A stretch of DNA of 34,428 nt from a virus, in IMG/VR virus record IMGVR_UViG_3300020469_000133, positions 1-34,428 of that record. One strand, given 5' to 3'. This document shows positions 1,843-7,959 of this stretch, one piece after another. The notes under the pieces were generated by a model. That model made no database searches and was not told where the DNA came from. It saw nothing but the letters and a program-made list of their open reading frames with translations. A program made the position numbers and the translations under genes. Position 1 is the first letter of the stretch; every line of letters begins with the position of its first letter.

Positions 1843-4329
1843 TTAACTGAAGCAGTATTTGCTTTCAGCGATTTGAGCTAATTGAAGCTCTCCTGACTCT
1901 GGTGGCTCTGGTACTCGATAGCTTTCACTATCATCCAGTTGCCGTTTACCCTGAGCTAGTAAGTTTTCGTACCAGTTCTCACTGTCGTACATATCGATAA
2001 AGGTAGATCTTATTACCTCGTACATCTTCTGTGTCTGTGCCGCAGTTGTCGCGAAACTATCGTGAATCAGAAAGAATGACATCTGATCATCGTCTTCTAT
2101 GCAGTTTAGCACAGTTTTAAGAAGGTGAGAGCTATCAAGAGAATGTATCACGTTAGGCGACACAGCAGTTTTACTCTTGCGTTTATCCACCCTGTTACTG
2201 TCAGGCTCACGTAAGGTCACCTGAGATCGCTGAGGCATCTTCGCTTCACGATCATACATATAGATCTTTATCTTCTTATAACGTGTCGTAGGGTAGAACT
2301 GGGCGGCAGGAAATCCTGACGGTGTTATCCAGTACATATGTTTACCTTCGTGCGCCAAAGCTCCACACAACTGTTGGAAGAATGACATACCCTGCTGAGC
2401 AGAACTTATGACTTTGTTAACCGCTTCCCAACTATGACCAGCTAAGTACTTTGCCGCTGCATAGCCGTGATCATCACCGAATGGATGCTTATCAAGCTTA
2501 CCTGTTAAGACATCATCGGTTAGTGGGTTCATCAAGTCTTCACGGATCTGTTCAAAGAAACCATACTGCTTTGATGAGTAACCATAGGTCATCACGTTCC
2601 GCTTAACAGTCTTCCGATTGATACCGTAGTTCTTCCACTGACTAGCCTCATCACAAGGGTCGTCCTCGATCTGCTTGATGACCTCGTCAGCTACTCGTTG
2701 GTAGATGTCTTGTGGTTTATCAGCAGGTACTAAGTTAACCAGCCCAGCGTCATCCACGTTCTTCGATAGTGCGCTGAAGTGTTGGATGCCTGAGTTCGTA
2801 CCGTCAAGCGCCACTGGTAAACCTGAGTAATAATCAACACCGTCAAGCTGTGCATCCCAGTAGTCAGCTAATTCAAAACAAGCAGCCAAGAACTCAAACG
2901 GCTTATCGGCCTGTGACCAGTAATCAACAGTTCCTTGCCAGTCGAGGGCAACACCAATGATGTTCTCTCGGTTTAACGCAACCCAAAGCTCACGATCATC
3001 AAAGCTTTCCTTGCTGACCTTGTTGAAGTCACCAGTGTTAGCACAGTGTATCGCAAGCCACCTTGCGCCTTCCTCAGTCACTAGCTCCATGTTCTTCAGA
3101 TAAAACATAGACTTCACATGACTATCTCGGTGATGACAGAAGTGAGGTATCGGGTAGATACGACCACGAAAGTCATAGTTGTGTGGCAAGTAGAACTCTT
3201 CAAACATAGCCATTTCATTAGCCGTGTTTAAATCTTGAGACATCACAGCCCTAGCACCATCGATCTGTCGATTGCGAACCACGACATCTCTTGCAGATAT
3301 ACGCCATAGCTTCTTGTCTTCAGGATCAAGGTATTCCCAGTTCTCAGGGAACTCAGGACGTTTGACATAGGCTCTTCGAGGAAAGCTAGGGATCTCAATG
3401 TCGTTAGTCCAAGCCCATGTAACAGCCTCTAAGATGTCCTCATTGATAACAAACGGAGTCGATTGCACTGCATTCAATGCACGAACATAAGGCTCTTTGC
3501 TAATGTCCTTGCCTCGTAGGTGTTTCTTCTGCCAAGGACTTGCGAAGCGGATGAGATCAACCTGCGCTCGTAAGCCATCATCAATGTAAGCACCCGTATC
3601 CAAGCTTTCCCAGTCCCGTGGTGGAACAATCATAGGGCTGAACACAGGCTGACACCAAGACTCATCAGCTTGTAGCTCTGCGATTAACGCACTAGCTTCA
3701 CCTGTTAAGCCTATGGATCTCTTGGTTTTTCCTGAGACAACCACTGACCATATCTCGAAGCATCCACTGTGTTCCAAGATGGCATTTAACACTGGTGATG
3801 CAGCCTTGACTCTACGTTCGTCAGACCACTTCTCGCGCTCAAAACCACCCTTACGAGCAATAGCACTAGCCGCCTTCAAACGATATCTCTCAGACGAATG
3901 GTCTTGAGGGACTTTCGCCTCGATACGCTCGAAGAGTCTTGCGTCATACTCACGTAGCTCTTTAGCCCACGCCTCAAGCTCTATGCGCTTGCCGATCTTG
4001 GTTAACACCCAAGTCATCGACTTAGCCATACCAACACCATCCATACACGTAGTCAGTCCAAGATAACTTATGAGGTCTATGTCAACACTCGTAAGATCCT
4101 TGACCCATGAAAAAGGACGACCCTTGCCTTTCGGTGTCAGGTCGCCAAGCTTCTCATGTAGCGATGATGAAACTAACGGTAGTGCATCCTTGATTAACTT
4201 ATGAGGTATATTCTTGATAGACATTTGAGAGACCTTGCCATCACGGTCAAAGTATTTCTCACGCCCTTTATCAATGCTATTAAACTCACGTAATAGCTCG
4301 TCTGTCTCTGTCCCATGAATCTTTGTCAT
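1843..4329 (-). CDS. T7-type single-subunit DNA-directed RNA polymerase
   Basis: An 828-residue polymerase that transcribes phage genes from phage promoters. Motifs in order: YDFRGRIYP; LDGTNSGIQHF with catalytic D509 (T7 D537); KRNVMTYGYSSKQYGF with K576 and Y584 (T7 K631 and Y639); and HDSFATT with the second metal aspartate D757 (T7 D812). The C-terminus is KYCFS rather than T7's FAFA. T7 RNAP is 883 residues, so the N-terminal promoter-recognition region is somewhat shorter. The ribosome binding site (AAGG about 11 bases from the ATG) is weak, and the leader carries a 9-bp hairpin at 4364-4385, both consistent with controlled expression. It lies downstream of the integrase in the early unit. 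Confidence 0.98.
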   Translation of the reverse strand: MTKIHGTETDELLREFNSIDKGREKYFDRDGKVSQMSIKNIPHKLIKDALPLVSSSLHEKLGDLTPKGKGRPFSWVKDLTSVDIDLISYLGLTTCMDGVGMAKSMTWVLTKIGKRIELEAWAKELREYDARLFERIEAKVPQDHSSERYRLKAASAIARKGGFEREKWSDERRVKAASPVLNAILEHSGCFEIWSVVVSGKTKRSIGLTGEASALIAELQADESWCQPVFSPMIVPPRDWESLDTGAYIDDGLRAQVDLIRFASPWQKKHLRGKDISKEPYVRALNAVQSTPFVINEDILEAVTWAWTNDIEIPSFPRRAYVKRPEFPENWEYLDPEDKKLWRISARDVVVRNRQIDGARAVMSQDLNTANEMAMFEEFYLPHNYDFRGRIYPIPHFCHHRDSHVKSMFYLKNMELVTEEGARWLAIHCANTGDFNKVSKESFDDRELWVALNRENIIGVALDWQGTVDYWSQADKPFEFLAACFELADYWDAQLDGVDYYSGLPVALDGTNSGIQHFSALSKNVDDAGLVNLVPADKPQDIYQRVADEVIKQIEDDPCDEASQWKNYGINRKTVKRNVMTYGYSSKQYGFFEQIREDLMNPLTDDVLTGKLDKHPFGDDHGYAAAKYLAGHSWEAVNKVISSAQQGMSFFQQLCGALAHEGKHMYWITPSGFPAAQFYPTTRYKKIKIYMYDREAKMPQRSQVTLREPDSNRVDKRKSKTAVSPNVIHSLDSSHLLKTVLNCIEDDDQMSFFLIHDSFATTAAQTQKMYEVIRSTFIDMYDSENWYENLLAQGKRQLDDSESYRVPEPPESGELQLAQIAESKYCFS

Positions 4330-4363
4330 GAATCAAACGCCTTTTCTAATGAAGTATCTCAAT

Positions 4364-4385
4364 GGGTGGACACAAATGTCTACCC
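4364..4385. promoter_or_regulatory. Near-perfect palindrome in the RNA polymerase leader (operator or RNA hairpin)
   Basis: Arms GGGTGGACA (4364-4372) and TGTCTACCC (4377-4385) are complementary except one position that can wobble in RNA, around a 4-base loop. It lies 35 bases upstream of the RNAP start codon. The first 12 bases, GGGTGGACACAA, recur exactly at 7058-7069, just upstream of the early promoter. A shared protein-binding site or an attenuator-like hairpin is inferred. No U-tract follows. Confidence 0.5.
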
Positions 4386-4410
4386 TCGAAATGGATCAAT
4401 TATTGAGCGT

Positions 4411-4722
4411 TTATTCGTCTAGCCTTGCTATGTATCCCAAGGCACTCTTGATCATGTATTCACCAACTTGCTTGGCTATACTGTCTTTGAGTGGCGAAGG
4501 GAACTCATCACGGTTGTAATCGACAATCATGGCTCTGAGCCATTGTTCCCGTTCCTTGAGTCCTTTGCTTTCAAGCTCCATAAACTCTTTGCGGATGTCT
4601 GCTTTCCAGAGGTGGTCTCTCAGCTCGTCAAGCTTGGGTGTGCTAAAGCTATCGTAGAAGCTTATTGCTTCACCAAAAGTAACGTGGTCGCTTAAAGCTT
4701 CCATTAGTTTGTACTTGTCCAT
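4411..4722 (-). CDS. Early hypothetical protein, 103 residues
   Basis: Predicted mostly helical and charged, with no membrane segment and no recognised domain. Two GGAG sequences precede the ATG; the one 8 bases away is the better ribosome binding site. It is the gene immediately before RNA polymerase in the early unit, separated from it by an 81-base leader carrying the palindrome. Position suggests an early host-modifying or regulatory role, but nothing in the sequence proves it. Confidence 0.65.
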   Translation of the reverse strand: MDKYKLMEALSDHVTFGEAISFYDSFSTPKLDELRDHLWKADIRKEFMELESKGLKEREQWLRAMIVDYNRDEFPSPLKDSIAKQVGEYMIKSALGYIARLDE

Positions 4723-4761
4723 ACTCCTTTCTCCTAGTAGTCAGGGTTAATAGTCTTGGGG

Positions 4762-5166
4762 TTACTCTGGGGTATACTGGGTCGCATAAGAAACACCGTT
4801 CTTAGCTGCCCACTGGGTTATAGCGTCAATAACGTCTTCAGAAACTTCTAAAGCTTCAGTCTCTCGTGCCTCATGTGTAAGACATCCAGACTTCTGAAGC
4901 TCATCAAGAGAGTCACTGAAGTGTCCCCATCTTGCGCTGAACCGTGAGACCTCACAGGTGAGAATCCAATTGTCATTCACGGCTTCATACTTGTCAGGAT
5001 AAATGCTTGCCGTGTATAGCGTGTAGCCTCTTTCAGACTTGCCAAAGACCTCAACCTTTCCAGTTGGGATTGGCTCATGCACTGGTTTCGTAAAGATGCG
5101 ATCCCAGTTTGCTTGTACGCTATTGTCATCGGCCTGTTGTGGCCGTCTTCCGCTACCTTTGCTCAT
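4762..5166 (-). CDS. Conserved-looking early hypothetical protein (SKGSGRRP N-terminus)
   Basis: I choose the ATG at 5166 because GAGGAG lies about 8 bases upstream; this gives 134 residues starting MSKGSGRRPQ. The N-terminus (SKGSGRRP followed by a QANWDRIF segment) resembles small uncharacterised proteins I recall from other phages, but I know no function. The middle is rich in aromatic and beta-type residues and the C-terminus is acidic. It overlaps the upstream gene by 14 bases, so the two are probably translationally coupled. Confidence 0.65.
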   Translation of the reverse strand: MSKGSGRRPQQADDNSVQANWDRIFTKPVHEPIPTGKVEVFGKSERGYTLYTASIYPDKYEAVNDNWILTCEVSRFSARWGHFSDSLDELQKSGCLTHEARETEALEVSEDVIDAITQWAAKNGVSYATQYTPE

Positions 5167-5365
5167 TGCTGCTCTCCTCACCGTAAACAAAAAGATCTAA
5201 CTCATCACAGATTCTTACAAATGCCTTGTGCTGAGTGCTGCTAAGGCGGTCTAACCAATCTTTAGCAGTCCCCTGCTGCGAAAAGATGACCGCCCTGCTT
5301 AACACTTCAAGCTCAGTGCGTGATAACGACATTGCTAAGCCCTTTCGGGCATTCTTGATTCTCAT
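5153..5365 (-). CDS. Early hypothetical protein, 70 residues
   Basis: Small, mostly helical protein with a basic start and acidic end. AGGAG lies 4 bases before the ATG at 5365. A second in-frame ATG at 5332 is possible but has a poorer ribosome binding site. The gene follows the integrase after a 14-base gap and overlaps the next gene. The length and helical pattern would suit a small DNA-binding or anti-host protein, but I cannot identify a helix-turn-helix with confidence. Confidence 0.55.
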   Translation of the reverse strand: MRIKNARKGLAMSLSRTELEVLSRAVIFSQQGTAKDWLDRLSSTQHKAFVRICDELDLFVYGEESSNEQR

Positions 5366-5379
5366 ACGTCTCCTTTTTA

Positions 5380-6210
5380 TTAAGCTACTTTCTCTAACAG
5401 TTTAGCGTACTCTTGAAGAGTTGCCCCTTTAGCCTTCACATACTTGGCTGTAGTCGCTTGAGAGCGGTGACCAAGCATCTTACCAATGACCAGCGTTTGC
5501 GCTCCAAGGTCGTTAGCCAAGCGTGTCGCACAGGTGTGGCGGCATACGTGAAAGACGAACTCTTTGTCGTTCTTGGCTACCTTGTATCGGCAGTCTTCCC
5601 ATGCGTCATAAAAGGTGCGATGGGAGTAGTGGTCTATGACACGCCCTCCAAGCTCCTGTATCGCCTTCTGAGCGGCTTTATTAAGAGGGACATACCTTTC
5701 GTCACCGTTCTTCGTTTGTGGCAGGTAGACCCATTTAGAGCCGTCTGAGTCGATCTGTACTGGAGCAGTGTCACCGATCTGGGTAATCTCGCCTAAGCGC
5801 ATCCCAGTATTGATGCCGATGATAAACAATTGCTTCATCCAAGAGTGCTTATGAGCATCAAAGAACTCGATGACTTGTTGGCACTCGCTGTCAGTGAAAT
5901 AGCGCAACCGAGCAGTCTTGGTCTTAAACCATTTGAACTTAGGAGCGTGGTTGATCACCTCCTCTTCGACAGCGTGTTTGAAGATAGCGGATATCGCTGA
6001 GTTATAACGGTTGACCGTAGACTTCTTAAGACCAGCCTCAAGCAGCGAGTCTTGGAACAAGTGAATGTCACGAGGCTTGAAGTCACCAAGGTCACGCTGA
6101 CCGTAGTCGTTGAAGGCACAGAAGCGTCCGAGTTGGAATCGAACGTCTTTCAGGTGCTTGCCTTCCCAGAGCCGTGATGCTTCTTCAGATATGAATTGAG
6201 TAATATTCAT
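5380..6210 (-). CDS. int: Tyrosine recombinase / phage integrase
   Basis: A 276-residue recombinase with all catalytic residues visible: R138 (GMRLGEI), K167 (TKNGDER), H221 and R224 (HVCRHT), H247 (LGHRS) and nucleophile Y257 (TAKYV). The first 95 or so residues form a SAM-like core-binding domain. It would recombine phage attP with a bacterial attB, here probably a tRNA-Asn gene. The ATG at 6210 overlaps the upstream stop as ATGA, implying coupled translation; a GTG three codons earlier is the alternative. Its position between attP and RNA polymerase recalls integrase-bearing T7-like marine phages such as cyanophage P-SSP7. No excisionase is recognisable nearby. Confidence 0.96.
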   Translation of the reverse strand: MNITQFISEEASRLWEGKHLKDVRFQLGRFCAFNDYGQRDLGDFKPRDIHLFQDSLLEAGLKKSTVNRYNSAISAIFKHAVEEEVINHAPKFKWFKTKTARLRYFTDSECQQVIEFFDAHKHSWMKQLFIIGINTGMRLGEITQIGDTAPVQIDSDGSKWVYLPQTKNGDERYVPLNKAAQKAIQELGGRVIDHYSHRTFYDAWEDCRYKVAKNDKEFVFHVCRHTCATRLANDLGAQTLVIGKMLGHRSQATTAKYVKAKGATLQEYAKLLEKVA

Positions 6211-6398
6211 CGTTTCCACCCCACTACCTTACCGTTGACTTGGGCGTTACGCTCGTTGATGTAAGCCGCAATCTCTGATGCGGTTGCAGGGCCATCGATA
6301 ACTTTGATGTCTTCTGCCTTAACTCGGACAGACCAGTGAAACTGCTTCTTGTCAGTGAACACTGTGTCCAGATAGTTTTGCTTAATTAGCTTAGGCAT
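6207..6398 (-). CDS. Early hypothetical protein, 63 residues
   Basis: The ATG at 6398 is chosen because GGGAG followed by ACACACATAT precedes it. The product starts MPKLIKQNYL and ends VVGWKR. It is small and basic, with a beta-rich middle and one helical segment (ATASEIAAYINERNAQ). Its stop overlaps the integrase ATG as ATGA. An excisionase or recombination-directionality factor would fit this position and size, but that is purely positional; no Xis-type motif is evident. Confidence 0.6.
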   Translation of the reverse strand: MPKLIKQNYLDTVFTDKKQFHWSVRVKAEDIKVIDGPATASEIAAYINERNAQVNGKVVGWKR

Positions 6399-6424
6399 AT
6401 ATGTGTGTCTCCCTAGTTGGTTGA

Positions 6425-6625
6425 TTAAACCCATTCTTTAACATTAATTACATCGTCAGTAATAAAACGACCGCCCGTGTTATAGACGTGTATCTCAACC
6501 GTTTTATGATCCGTGCTAAGGTACATACTACCGATGTAATAGTTACATGGCTTCAAACCTAAGTCAGCGAGAATCTCGTTAGATTTTGCGTTAATAGCAT
6601 CGTAAACTTCTGAGCTTGTATTCAT
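6425..6625 (-). CDS. Early hypothetical protein, 66 residues
   Basis: The ATG at 6625 (MNTSSEVYDAINAKSNEI) is favoured by TGGAGACACACAC directly upstream, the same leader as in the flanking genes. An N-terminal helix is followed by beta-type segments (NYYIGSMYLS, KTVEIHVYN). No domain recognised. It belongs to a cluster of three very small genes at the head of the early transcript, where T7-like phages usually keep host-takeover proteins. Confidence 0.6.
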   Translation of the reverse strand: MNTSSEVYDAINAKSNEILADLGLKPCNYYIGSMYLSTDHKTVEIHVYNTGGRFITDDVINVKEWV

Positions 6626-6652
6626 GTGTGTGTCTCCAGTTGTTTGCATAAG

Positions 6653-6684
6653 ACGCCTTCTCAGGCGTTTCGGCTATTGAAGCC
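6653..6684 (-). other. Tandem stem-loops between the first two early genes
   Basis: ACGCCT (6653-6658) pairs with AGGCGT (6663-6668) across a 4-base loop, and GGCT (6672-6675) pairs with AGCC (6681-6684). They sit in the 66-base gap between the genes starting at 6871 and 6625. Neither has a good U-tract, so RNA processing or partial attenuation is more likely than termination. Function inferred. Confidence 0.4.
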
Positions 6685-6691
6685 TCGTCAG

Positions 6692-6871
6692 TTATGCTTC
6701 GTACATTTCTTTAGTTTCTAATTTGTTTAAGAACTCACTATACCCATATACTAAATAGTCGTGTGGGTTACCTTCGGCTTCGAGGTATACGATCATGCCC
6801 TTAAGGTATAAGTCAAAAGTAATGCTCTCATCTGCTGAGTGCTTGAACTTCATGCCGTTTGATAATTCTTT
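6692..6871 (-). CDS. First early gene, hypothetical protein, 59 residues
   Basis: The ATG at 6871 (MKELSNGMKFKHSADESI) follows CGGAGACACACATC, the shared early ribosome-binding leader; an upstream start at 6904 lacks this. The protein is a small soluble acidic polypeptide with beta-type segments (TFDLYLKGMIVYLEA). It is the first gene after the early promoter, the position of immediate-early host-modifying proteins in T7-like phages. No known family recognised. Confidence 0.6.
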   Translation of the reverse strand, partial: KELSNGMKFKHSADESITFDLYLKGMIVYLEAEGNPHDYLVYGYSEFLNKLETKEMYEA

Positions 6872-6903
6872 CATGATGTGTGTCTCCGATTGTGTGATGT
6901 CCA

Positions 6904-6932
6904 TTGACCCCTCAATGAACTTGGTTTATGTC
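6904..6932 (+). promoter_or_regulatory. Weak possible plus-strand promoter ahead of the tRNA fragment
   Basis: TTGACC (6904-6909), a 17-base spacer and TATGTC (6927-6932) lie 11 bases before the first base of the tRNA-Asn fragment, in its direction. The -10 is poor. It would be useful if the phage must transcribe the hybrid tRNA after integration. Speculative. Confidence 0.2.
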
Positions 6933-7011
6933 GAAGATCGTAATCCGGCGTAGCTCAGCGGTAGAGCAGTTGACTGTTAATCAGATGACGAGCGCCAACA
7001 AACCTTCGACA
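6929..7011. repeat. 8-bp inverted repeat bracketing the tRNA fragment
   Basis: TGTCGAAG (6929-6936) is the exact reverse complement of CTTCGACA (7004-7011), separated by 67 bases that contain the tRNA-Asn fragment. The right arm coincides with the expected start of the early transcript, so the two arms could close a stem in the early leader RNA. They could also be integrase arm-type sites. Both roles are inferred. Confidence 0.5.
6944..6985 (+). other. 5' part of a tRNA-Asn(GUU) gene: probable attP core
   Basis: The sequence reads as a tRNA-Asn from its first base through the anticodon arm: acceptor 5' strand TCCGGCG (6944-6950), D-arm GCTC/GAGC (6953-6956, 6964-6967), then anticodon loop CTGTTAA (6974-6980) with GTT at 6976-6978. 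The similarity stops just after the loop: no variable loop, T-arm or acceptor 3' strand follows, so it is not a working tRNA. A partial tRNA copy close to a tyrosine integrase gene is the usual signature of attP. It is on the strand opposite to the phage genes. The usual arrangement carries the tRNA 3' part; here it is the 5' part. Confidence 0.75.
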
Positions 7012-7016
7012 GGTGT

Positions 7017-7046
7017 ATTATACAACTAGCTGAGAATCGATGTCAA
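7017..7046 (-). promoter_or_regulatory. Strong sigma70 early promoter
   Basis: On the minus strand a perfect -35 TTGACA (7046-7041) and perfect -10 TATAAT (7022-7017) are separated by 18 bases. The start would be near 7010. It lies between the late-unit terminator and the first early gene, so host RNA polymerase can transcribe the early genes through integrase and phage RNA polymerase. The 12-mer GGGTGGACACAA lies just upstream (7058-7069), a possible regulator site. Confidence 0.85.
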
Positions 7047-7057
7047 CACTTGTACTA

Positions 7058-7069
7058 GGGTGGACACAA
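7058..7069. promoter_or_regulatory. 12-base element repeated in the RNA polymerase leader
   Basis: GGGTGGACACAA is identical to 4364-4375 in the RNAP leader. Both copies are intergenic. This one lies 12 bases upstream of the early -35 box and lacks the second palindromic arm. Candidate operator or phage-specific element; role inferred. Confidence 0.4.
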
Positions 7070-7105
7070 TTAGAAAGGTCAATTGATAACTACTTGAGAG
7101 ACCTC

Positions 7106-7138
7106 GAAAAAACACCGATCCACTTATGAATCGATGCT
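7106..7138 (-). terminator. Intrinsic terminator of the late (structural and lysis) unit
   Basis: On the minus strand CATCGAT (7136-7130) pairs with ATCGGTG (7119-7113), with one G-U and possible extension to 9 pairs, around a 10-base loop. A run of six T follows (7112-7107). It lies 23 bases past the holin-like stop and upstream of the early promoter, so it separates late from early transcription. Confidence 0.75.
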
Positions 7139-7160
7139 TATGAGGGGCAGTTGGTATTAT

Positions 7161-7550
7161 TTACTTTTTACCGCCAAACTGGGAAACCGCCCACCTGATA
7201 CCCATGCTTGCAGCAATCGATGCCATAAACATATAGCTGTACCATTCAGGGGCGTGAGCGTTCAGGTGAATCCACCCTTGCGCCACATAATCTTGAGTCC
7301 ACGGGAGAAACGATCCCACGAAAGGCGCTAGAATGACCACGAGAGCCACTTCGTCTTTCCATGAGTATTGCGTCTGCCTCATCGCTTCGAGGTCGTAGTC
7401 AACCTCTGCGGAAGCCTGACGCTCGATCTGAGAGATCTGCGCCTTTACTTTAGCAGTCTCGATCTCGGCCTTGGCTTGAGCTTTAATCTTACGCCCTTCC
7501 ATGTACTGACCTGCGACACCACTGACTGCCTGTAACACCATGTTAAGCAT
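7161..7550 (-). CDS. Holin-like membrane protein
   Basis: The start at 7550 is chosen for GGAGAC followed by AGTCTC before the ATG; it overlaps the lysozyme stop by 8 bases. Of 129 residues, the first 60 or so form a helical, charged segment (KIKAQAKAEIETAKVKAQI) of coiled-coil type. Two hydrophobic segments follow (VALVVILAPFVGSFLPW and SYMFMASIAASMGIRW), ending in a basic GGKK tail. This resembles phage holins of the GTA/T7-like type with an amphipathic helix and C-terminal membrane hairpin. Position directly after the endolysin supports a lysis role. No biochemical motif proves it. Confidence 0.65.
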   Translation of the reverse strand: MLNMVLQAVSGVAGQYMEGRKIKAQAKAEIETAKVKAQISQIERQASAEVDYDLEAMRQTQYSWKDEVALVVILAPFVGSFLPWTQDYVAQGWIHLNAHAPEWYSYMFMASIAASMGIRWAVSQFGGKK

Positions 7551-7959
7551 GAGACTGTCTCCTGAGAACTCCTGCGAGTTCCTCTGCACGAGAGCCGACT
7601 TGCCGAGCCCATTTCGAGTCTAGGGCTTCATTGGCGGCAGTTGACCACGATCCTTCTTCGATGGCAGCAAACATATTCTTAAACTGCATCAATCGGGTGA
7701 TACCTAAGTTAAAACACATATTTACGAGGACTTCTTGAGCTTCCTCAGGGAGGTCGTCAAAGAACATTACGTTCCTGCGTAGCTCTTCGACTGCAATAAT
7801 AATGTCGTCTTCGAGCATGAGATCAATCACACGATCAGACAGTGGTTGAGTCATTGCATGGCCTACGCCAACCGTATCCACTCCGACAGAACACTTGTAC
7901 ATCATGTGTCGCTTGCCTTCGTGTCTCGTCAGGGTCTGCTTTAGTCTCTCGTAATTCAT
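7543..7959 (-). CDS. T4-type lysozyme (GH24 endolysin)
   Basis: A 138-residue muramidase that cleaves peptidoglycan at the end of infection. The family triad spacing (Glu, 8 residues, Asp or Cys, 5 residues, Thr) is present as E14 (RHEGK), C23 (YKCSVG) and T29 (DTVGVGH). The position equivalent to T4 Asp20 is Cys, a variant known to be active in engineered T4 lysozyme and found in other phage endolysins. There is no signal peptide or SAR-type N-terminal segment, so export should depend on a holin, here the next gene. AAGGA lies about 10 bases before the ATG. Confidence 0.92.
   Translation of the reverse strand: MNYERLKQTLTRHEGKRHMMYKCSVGVDTVGVGHAMTQPLSDRVIDLMLEDDIIIAVEELRRNVMFFDDLPEEAQEVLVNMCFNLGITRLMQFKNMFAAIEEGSWSTAANEALDSKWARQVGSRAEELAGVLRRQSHA

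Follow-up and report, generated by a model that had tools for sequence, protein, structure and literature searches.

Can the 5' half of a tRNA gene, carried by a T7-like phage close to its integrase gene, serve as the phage attachment site (attP), and from which promoter would the tRNA then be transcribed in a lysogen? According to a review, bacterial tRNA genes that have been rebuilt are still read from their own promoter "with very few exceptions" (PMC8371274). In Islander, a 5' fragment is recorded for 159 islands and a 3' fragment for 3760, i.e., 159/3919 in total (PMC4383910). The locus studied here is located in IMG/VR virus record IMGVR_UViG_3300020469_000133. All 34,428 nucleotides of it are called the window in the following. 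The features are compiled in Table 1.

Table 1. Features of the attP region in the window and coordinates of compared phage and prophages
Feature	Position	Strand	Remarks
T7-like single-subunit RNA polymerase (RNAP)	1843..4329	-	phrog_414 1e-190; downstream of int, same direction
Tyrosine integrase (int), 277 aa	5380..6213	-	PHROG integrase 4.7e-41; Pfam PF00589 2.8e-19; GTG at 6219 also possible as start
Further small ORFs between attP and int	6425-6649; 6207-6434	-	
First small ORF of the int operon	6692..6874	-	no family
Palindrome CATTGA-CCCC-TCAATG	6902..6917	.	GGGG-loop hairpin in minus-strand leader RNA
Candidate tRNA promoter TTGACC-17-TATGTC	6904..6932	+	TTGACC 6904-6909, TATGTC 6927-6932
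Inverted repeat TGTCGAAG / CTTCGACA	6929..7011	.	arms 6929-6936 and 7004-7011; flanks core
attP core, 5' half of tRNA-Asn(GTT), TCCGGCGTAGCTCAGCGGTAGAGCAGTTGACTGTTAATCA	6944..6983	+	40-bp host identity
Anticodon loop CTGTTAA, 7 bp	6974-6980	+	likely crossover (overlap) region
P_L, TTGACA-18-TATAAT	7017..7046	-	12/12 sigma-70 consensus; reads across attP into int/RNAP operon
Candidate phage RNAP promoter TTGTGTCCACCCTA	7056..7069	-	repeated motif
Putative rho-independent terminator CATCGATTC-ATAAGT-GGATCGGTG-TTTTTT	7107..7136	-	by eye; after lysis genes
L043, tRNA-Asn 5' half	7902-7940	-	int 6892-7770; RNAP 2917-5403
G623 prophage	C1 about 384.6-424.6 kb		L228, L229
G720 T7-like prophage	C1 about 77.6-118.3 kb		L226, L227

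The tRNA-Asn half and its phage surroundings

The window belongs to a T7-like phage. All assigned genes are located on the minus strand and encode terminase, portal, scaffold, capsid, tail and lysis proteins, followed by integrase, RNAP, SSB and endonuclease. This is the layout of temperate T7-like phages of the HTVC019P, P-SSP7 or LUZ100 type, in which int lies upstream of the RNAP gene and the SSB and endonuclease genes lie downstream. A MarR regulator directly upstream of int is usual, not universal, in such phages. Among the small ORFs between attP and the RNAP gene, PHROG and Pfam gave no MarR-like gene, and ProddE likewise has none.

The segment named attP core in Table 1 comprises the acceptor 5' strand, the D-arm and the anticodon arm of tRNA-Asn(GTT) and has phage DNA on either side. 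The exact 40-mer was found in at least 120 bacterial contigs by a pattern scan. Those with informative names all belong to the Rhodobacterales, and nearly all of the contigs run on into the tRNA-Asn 3' half ATTGGTCGTAGGTTCGATCCCTACCGCCGGAGCCA. The part that the phage does not carry starts with ATTGGTCGTAGG. A 40-bp match of this kind by chance can be regarded as out of the question. Host identity begins at tRNA nt 1 and breaks off in the anticodon stem, within its 3' arm; the first mismatch (A in the host, G in the phage) follows just past 6983. The core block therefore comprises 40 bp and not 42, so that the stretch 6944-6985 of the original prediction, which was to be identical in host tRNA-Asn genes, is right in its start and two bp too long at its end. 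The match to Rfam RF00005 begins precisely at 6944 (25.2 bits, E 0.0037 in 351 bp searched, below gathering), and ARAGORN reported no complete tRNA. A degenerate full-length tRNA at 6944-7014 (Rfam, 25 bits) was dismissed because the acceptor 3' strand finds no pairing.

The tRNA identity predicted for this segment, tRNA-Asn(GUU), is thus confirmed by the exact match to Rhodobacterales genes. The same holds for its orientation, opposite to int, RNAP and every other assigned gene. The core was also proposed to be an attP-type fragment used by an integrase, and a tyrosine integrase gene lies 0.7 kb away, with attP outside of it. Its catalytic set R139-K168-H222xxR225-H249-Y258 is intact in the alignment. 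With the element giving the 5' part and the host the 3' part, the core falls into the Islander class with a 5' tDNA fragment.

Conservation in related phages

The 39-mer is unchanged in four phage contigs, i.e., the window, L033, L047 and the truncated contig L023, while both flanks have diverged. The flanks of attP are common to the window, L033 and L047, whose integrases are 89% (L033) and 71% (L047) identical to that of the window. The same tRNA-Asn 5' half is present in the more distant T7-like phage L043 (integrase 35% identical), which we regard as an independent recurrence. Here the half points in the same direction as int. In L043 lysogens, the host tRNA promoter would come to lie upstream of int, and phage early sequence upstream of the rebuilt tRNA. 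A search of viral contigs with RNAP gave nothing usable. Most IMG/VR contigs with the 39-mer (L002-L042) hold a complete tRNA-Asn, many at the contig end or in tRNA clusters, and some of them may be bacterial DNA or prophage edges and not phage genes.

In the window, L033, L047 and L043, identity to the host extends from nt 1 to just past the anticodon loop (39 to 44 bp). Such an end point fits a probable crossover in the 7-bp anticodon loop, which is flanked by the stem arms. Taken together, a temperate T7-like phage of Rhodobacterales (roseobacter-type marine bacteria) most likely has its attP at 6944-6983.

The segment might also be a relic, either an old attP or a piece of host tRNA from imprecise excision that no longer serves integration. 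In the LUZ100 study, imprecise excision is offered as the origin of a tRNA-Leu beside int (PMC10134795), and lysogens were found neither in the genome collection nor in the 394 family genomes. However, the 39 bp are invariant in four phage contigs with diverged flanks, the catalytic residues of the integrase are intact, and the arrangement recurs independently in L043. A relic appears very improbable to us.

Host target and search for lysogens

For the copy number of the 40-mer, 149 genomes of the host family were sampled. It is held by 123 of them, as one exact copy in 111 and as two copies in 12. Genomes with two copies (G054, G055, G091, G102, G209, G216 and others) were considered as lysogens and rejected, as the copies read are complete tRNAs with host-type promoters. 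Searches for integrase relatives, run without a positive control, gave none in the bacterial genome collection and none in 394 genomes of the host family. Prophages of the window phage or of a close relative with attL and attR in the anticodon loop, as the original prediction suggested looking for, were accordingly not found in these searches.

Proposed integration and candidate promoter of the rebuilt tRNA

For an active attP, the following course can be assumed. The integrase would recombine attP and the host tRNA-Asn gene, acting on the anticodon-loop region of each. The host promoter and the cut-off host 5' half would remain at one prophage end. At the int-side end, the 5' half from the phage would join the 3' half from the host to rebuild a complete tRNA-Asn. 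Since the phage carries the 5' part, the intact tRNA of the lysogen would have phage DNA upstream. A promoter on the plus strand would be expected between about 6875 and 6943, because the phage genes there run the other way, and TTGACC-17-TATGTC is the only visible candidate. The early promoters (7017-7069) would land at the prophage end opposite int and RNAP, so that expression of both should fall in the lysogen. The tRNA half, the integrase, their orientation, the conserved arrangement and a lysogen with 5'-half geometry (G623, see below) can be read directly from the sequences. From these we infer that the site is used, where the crossover falls, which promoter serves the tRNA and that the early operon is silenced. 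We hold the explanation as a whole, with an attP core, a tRNA-Asn rebuilt on the phage 5' half and an int/RNAP operon cut from its early promoters, to be highly probable.

A phage promoter for the rebuilt tRNA-Asn is likely by logic. The candidate was described in the original prediction as weak and correctly oriented, and it is present as stated. It ends 11 nt before tRNA nt 1, and its -35 element lies at about the distance found in host genes, which have their own promoter CTCTGGAC-spacer-TGCTATAC just upstream of tRNA-Asn. Its weakness is evident from an E. coli sigma-70 matrix, by which 10% of the flanking positions score as high (fraction 0.10). This fraction is 0.37 in L033 and 0.14 in L047; in P-SSP7 the match is a strong one (0.0005). 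With a host matrix, for which 122 upstream regions of host tRNA-Asn genes served as training set, the fractions are 0.016 for the window, 0.010 for L047 and 0.14 for L033, and the candidate of the window is host-like to a modest degree. This matrix is of limited reach, as it gives 0.089 for the rebuilt tRNA of G623 and 0.946 for the host copy of G623. Among the relatives, the -35 part is conserved and the -10 part is not; it is not kept in L033. The candidate -35 is overlapped by the palindrome in Table 1, which shows compensatory changes in L047, and this conserved palindrome may have another role. TTGACC-17-TATGTC is thus a weak and unproven candidate for the actual tRNA promoter.

The phage could also do without a dedicated promoter, if lysogens live on a second tRNA-Asn copy or on transcription from elsewhere. 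The 12 of 123 family genomes with two exact copies and the low rank of the candidate by the E. coli matrix are in line with this. On the other side, 111 of the 123 hold a single exact copy, and read-through is unlikely because the upstream phage genes run away from the tRNA. The identity starts at mature nt 1, in keeping with the requirement that a complete tRNA be formed, and the host-matrix fractions of the window and L047 are low. We consider the lack of a dedicated promoter rather unlikely and retain a phage promoter as the preferred reading.

Predicted early promoters and possible leader RNA of the int/RNAP operon

Newly noted here is that two predicted promoters point across attP into int and RNAP, i.e., P_L, the sole 12/12 sigma-70 match in 4300-7250, and a phage-type promoter upstream of it. 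Transcription from P_L is antisense to the tRNA half. P_L is conserved in L033 and L023 and variant in L047. The second element contains the motif TTGTGTCCACCC (7069-7056), which is also located before the RNAP gene (about 4362-4375, minus), in related phages and at further places in G001 and G002. It is probably a promoter of the phage RNAP. Between the lysis genes and the early promoters, a terminator-like hairpin with a T-run is kept in 4/4 phages; a terminator scan reported none at this position. As both promoters read across attP, integration should sever the operon from them. Weaker promoter matches are present downstream of attP at 4997 and 4382, and RNAP parted from P_L may therefore not be fully silenced.

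A state-dependent int promoter is known from ICEKp1. As long as the element is excised, its int is transcribed from a promoter on the other side of attP; after integration a different promoter takes over, and stem-loops in the integrase leader attenuate int (PMC13023037). A predicted promoter on the far side of attP, as in the ICEKp1/ICEclc-type layout, is present in the window, and from its position it may drive int only in the unintegrated state. In contrast to the window, ICEKp1 targets the 3' end of a tRNA, and the tRNA promoter drives int after integration; the tRNA of the window runs away from int.

Moreover, the int/RNAP mRNA could have a regulatory leader, built from the antisense tRNA half together with the inverted repeat and the hairpin with its GGGG loop. 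P_L starts near the right arm of the inverted repeat in 3/3 phages. In minus-strand RNA, the predicted 5' end would pair with sequence just past the antisense tRNA half, and in L033 and L047 the letters of the repeat differ and pairing is predicted again. Minus-strand leader folds beat shuffles (z -1.5, -2.2 and -2.9), those of the plus strand do not (z +1.2), and three hairpin pairs are altered on both sides in L047. The leader stem-loops of ICEKp1 provide a parallel. These points are weakened by the number of usable sequences, as three are too few to decide on a leader function. RNAalifold on the three leaders did not align the 5' stem. The inverted repeat exceeds shuffles only in L047 (0/60), not in the window (25/60) or L033. 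The repeats flanking the core could also be integrase arm sites, as in pelagiphages. A regulatory leader is thus a tentative reading, possible and somewhat on the unlikely side; it does not exclude the attP role and is compatible with it.

Inverted repeats that look like integrase arm-binding sites are present in pelagiphage attP regions (L183, L184, L191, L192, L208, L213), for instance GRATAGTTG or GTAGGAGCGGA; they precede tRNA nt 1 by about 40 bp and follow it at about 100 bp. A family-wide conserved arm site is a less probable reading of the inverted repeat of the window, since its sequence differs between the window, L033 and L047, unlike the pelagiphage arms.

5' halves in other T7-like phages and integrative elements

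The int regions of 23 T7-like phages were surveyed for tRNA halves by a script. A 5' half was found in 12, a whole tRNA-Leu in six and neither in five; a 3' half alone did not occur (0/23). The 5' halves derive from tRNA-Cys on the opposite strand (HTVC201P, HTVC121P, HTVC131P, Jormungand), tRNA-Arg (HTVC134P, HTVC120P, Bylgja) and tRNA-Leu (S35-C6, HTVC109P, HTVC105P, P-SSP7, S-CBP1). Host identity of the halves was taken from the literature for P-SSP7 (PMC8776855) and an HTVC019P-like Mediterranean phage (PMC3861242). Many of the surveyed phages are close kin, so the counts do not represent independent events; the tRNAs concerned are of four types, and the phages belong to at least two lineages. 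The 5'-half attP, presented as unusual in the original prediction, is a minority mode overall, as the Islander counts show, but the most frequent attP form in temperate T7-like phages related to the window. With 12 of 23 relatives carrying a 5' half, the window fits the pattern of its phage type. The attP of most relatives is placed between int and RNAP, and integration would part upstream early promoters from RNAP.

The tRNA-Cys pelagiphages resemble the window. They are Autographiviridae-type phages with a related integrase (about 33% identical) and a 5'-half attP opposite to int and RNAP. Unlike the window, they have attP between int and RNAP, a MarR gene before int, and another tRNA and host. 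Integration of HTVC022P at tRNA-Cys was reported by Zhao et al. (2019), as cited in PMC12753301. For P-SSP7 and S-TIP37, integration at tRNA-Leu was demonstrated experimentally, with int and attP needed in S-TIP37; related cyanophages integrate, and no stable lysogens were obtained (PMC8776855). Like the window, P-SSP7 has its tRNA 5' half beside int, with RNAP further downstream. The half is, however, on the gene strand and downstream of int, with a strong TATAAT upstream. In pTN3-like archaeal integrative elements, attB is a tRNA 5' half, and transcription of the rebuilt tRNA starts from a promoter of the element (PMC8371274). These archaeal elements differ from the window in their suicidal integrase with att inside the gene; int of the window is intact and separate, and its gene does not contain att.

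Natural prophages with split tRNA genes

For T7-like prophages, RNA polymerase family phrog_414 was searched against 385 alphaproteobacterial genomes, three of which matched. In G623, a prophage of about 40 kb lies between the copies of a 50-bp direct repeat that contains the 5' half of tRNA-Lys(TTT). The displaced half has stayed with its host neighbours (gyrA, coaD), and int comes next. At the other prophage end, the tRNA-Lys is complete again and lies downstream of the endolysin gene of the phage. The genome has no further tRNA-Lys(TTT) match, and this one has phage DNA upstream. G623 is thus a natural precedent for a lysogen with 5'-half geometry in which an essential tRNA has phage DNA upstream, as in the arrangement proposed for the window. 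It differs in that the half points in the same direction as int, as in L043, and that the upstream endolysin gene is co-directional with the tRNA. The predicted lysogen tRNA with phage DNA upstream is therefore seen in a related prophage and not in a lysogen of the window phage, of which none was found.

In G720, the host tRNA-Leu(CAA) is split in the anticodon loop and stays split. Next to int, the phage supplies a complete tRNA-Leu(CAA) of its own, and a rebuilt tRNA-Leu was rejected for this genome, as the complete gene is a different, phage-borne one. Such an arrangement was also described for a Fonsibacter prophage (PMC6811365). G623 and G720 are two solutions to the same problem.

Implications for lysogeny of T7-like phages

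The window adds a good new case to an attP type that is known, though in the minority. The placement of attP might even act as a lysogeny switch, by which tRNA-Asn passes to a phage promoter and int and RNAP are cut from the only strong host-type promoter. The lytic programme would then be silenced without a dedicated repressor, no MarR gene having been found, with a structured leader that includes the antisense tRNA half tuning the operon before integration. We regard this extended reading as doubtful. Temperate T7-like phages, which are abundant in the sea, seem to be a systematic exception to the rule that rebuilt tRNAs keep their own promoter. Because many of them carry a 5' half or a whole tRNA, their lysogens would depend on phage DNA for an essential tRNA. 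Such dependence would give a selective reason for reliance of the host on its prophage, and it bears on how T7-like phages, mostly regarded as lytic, manage lysogeny.
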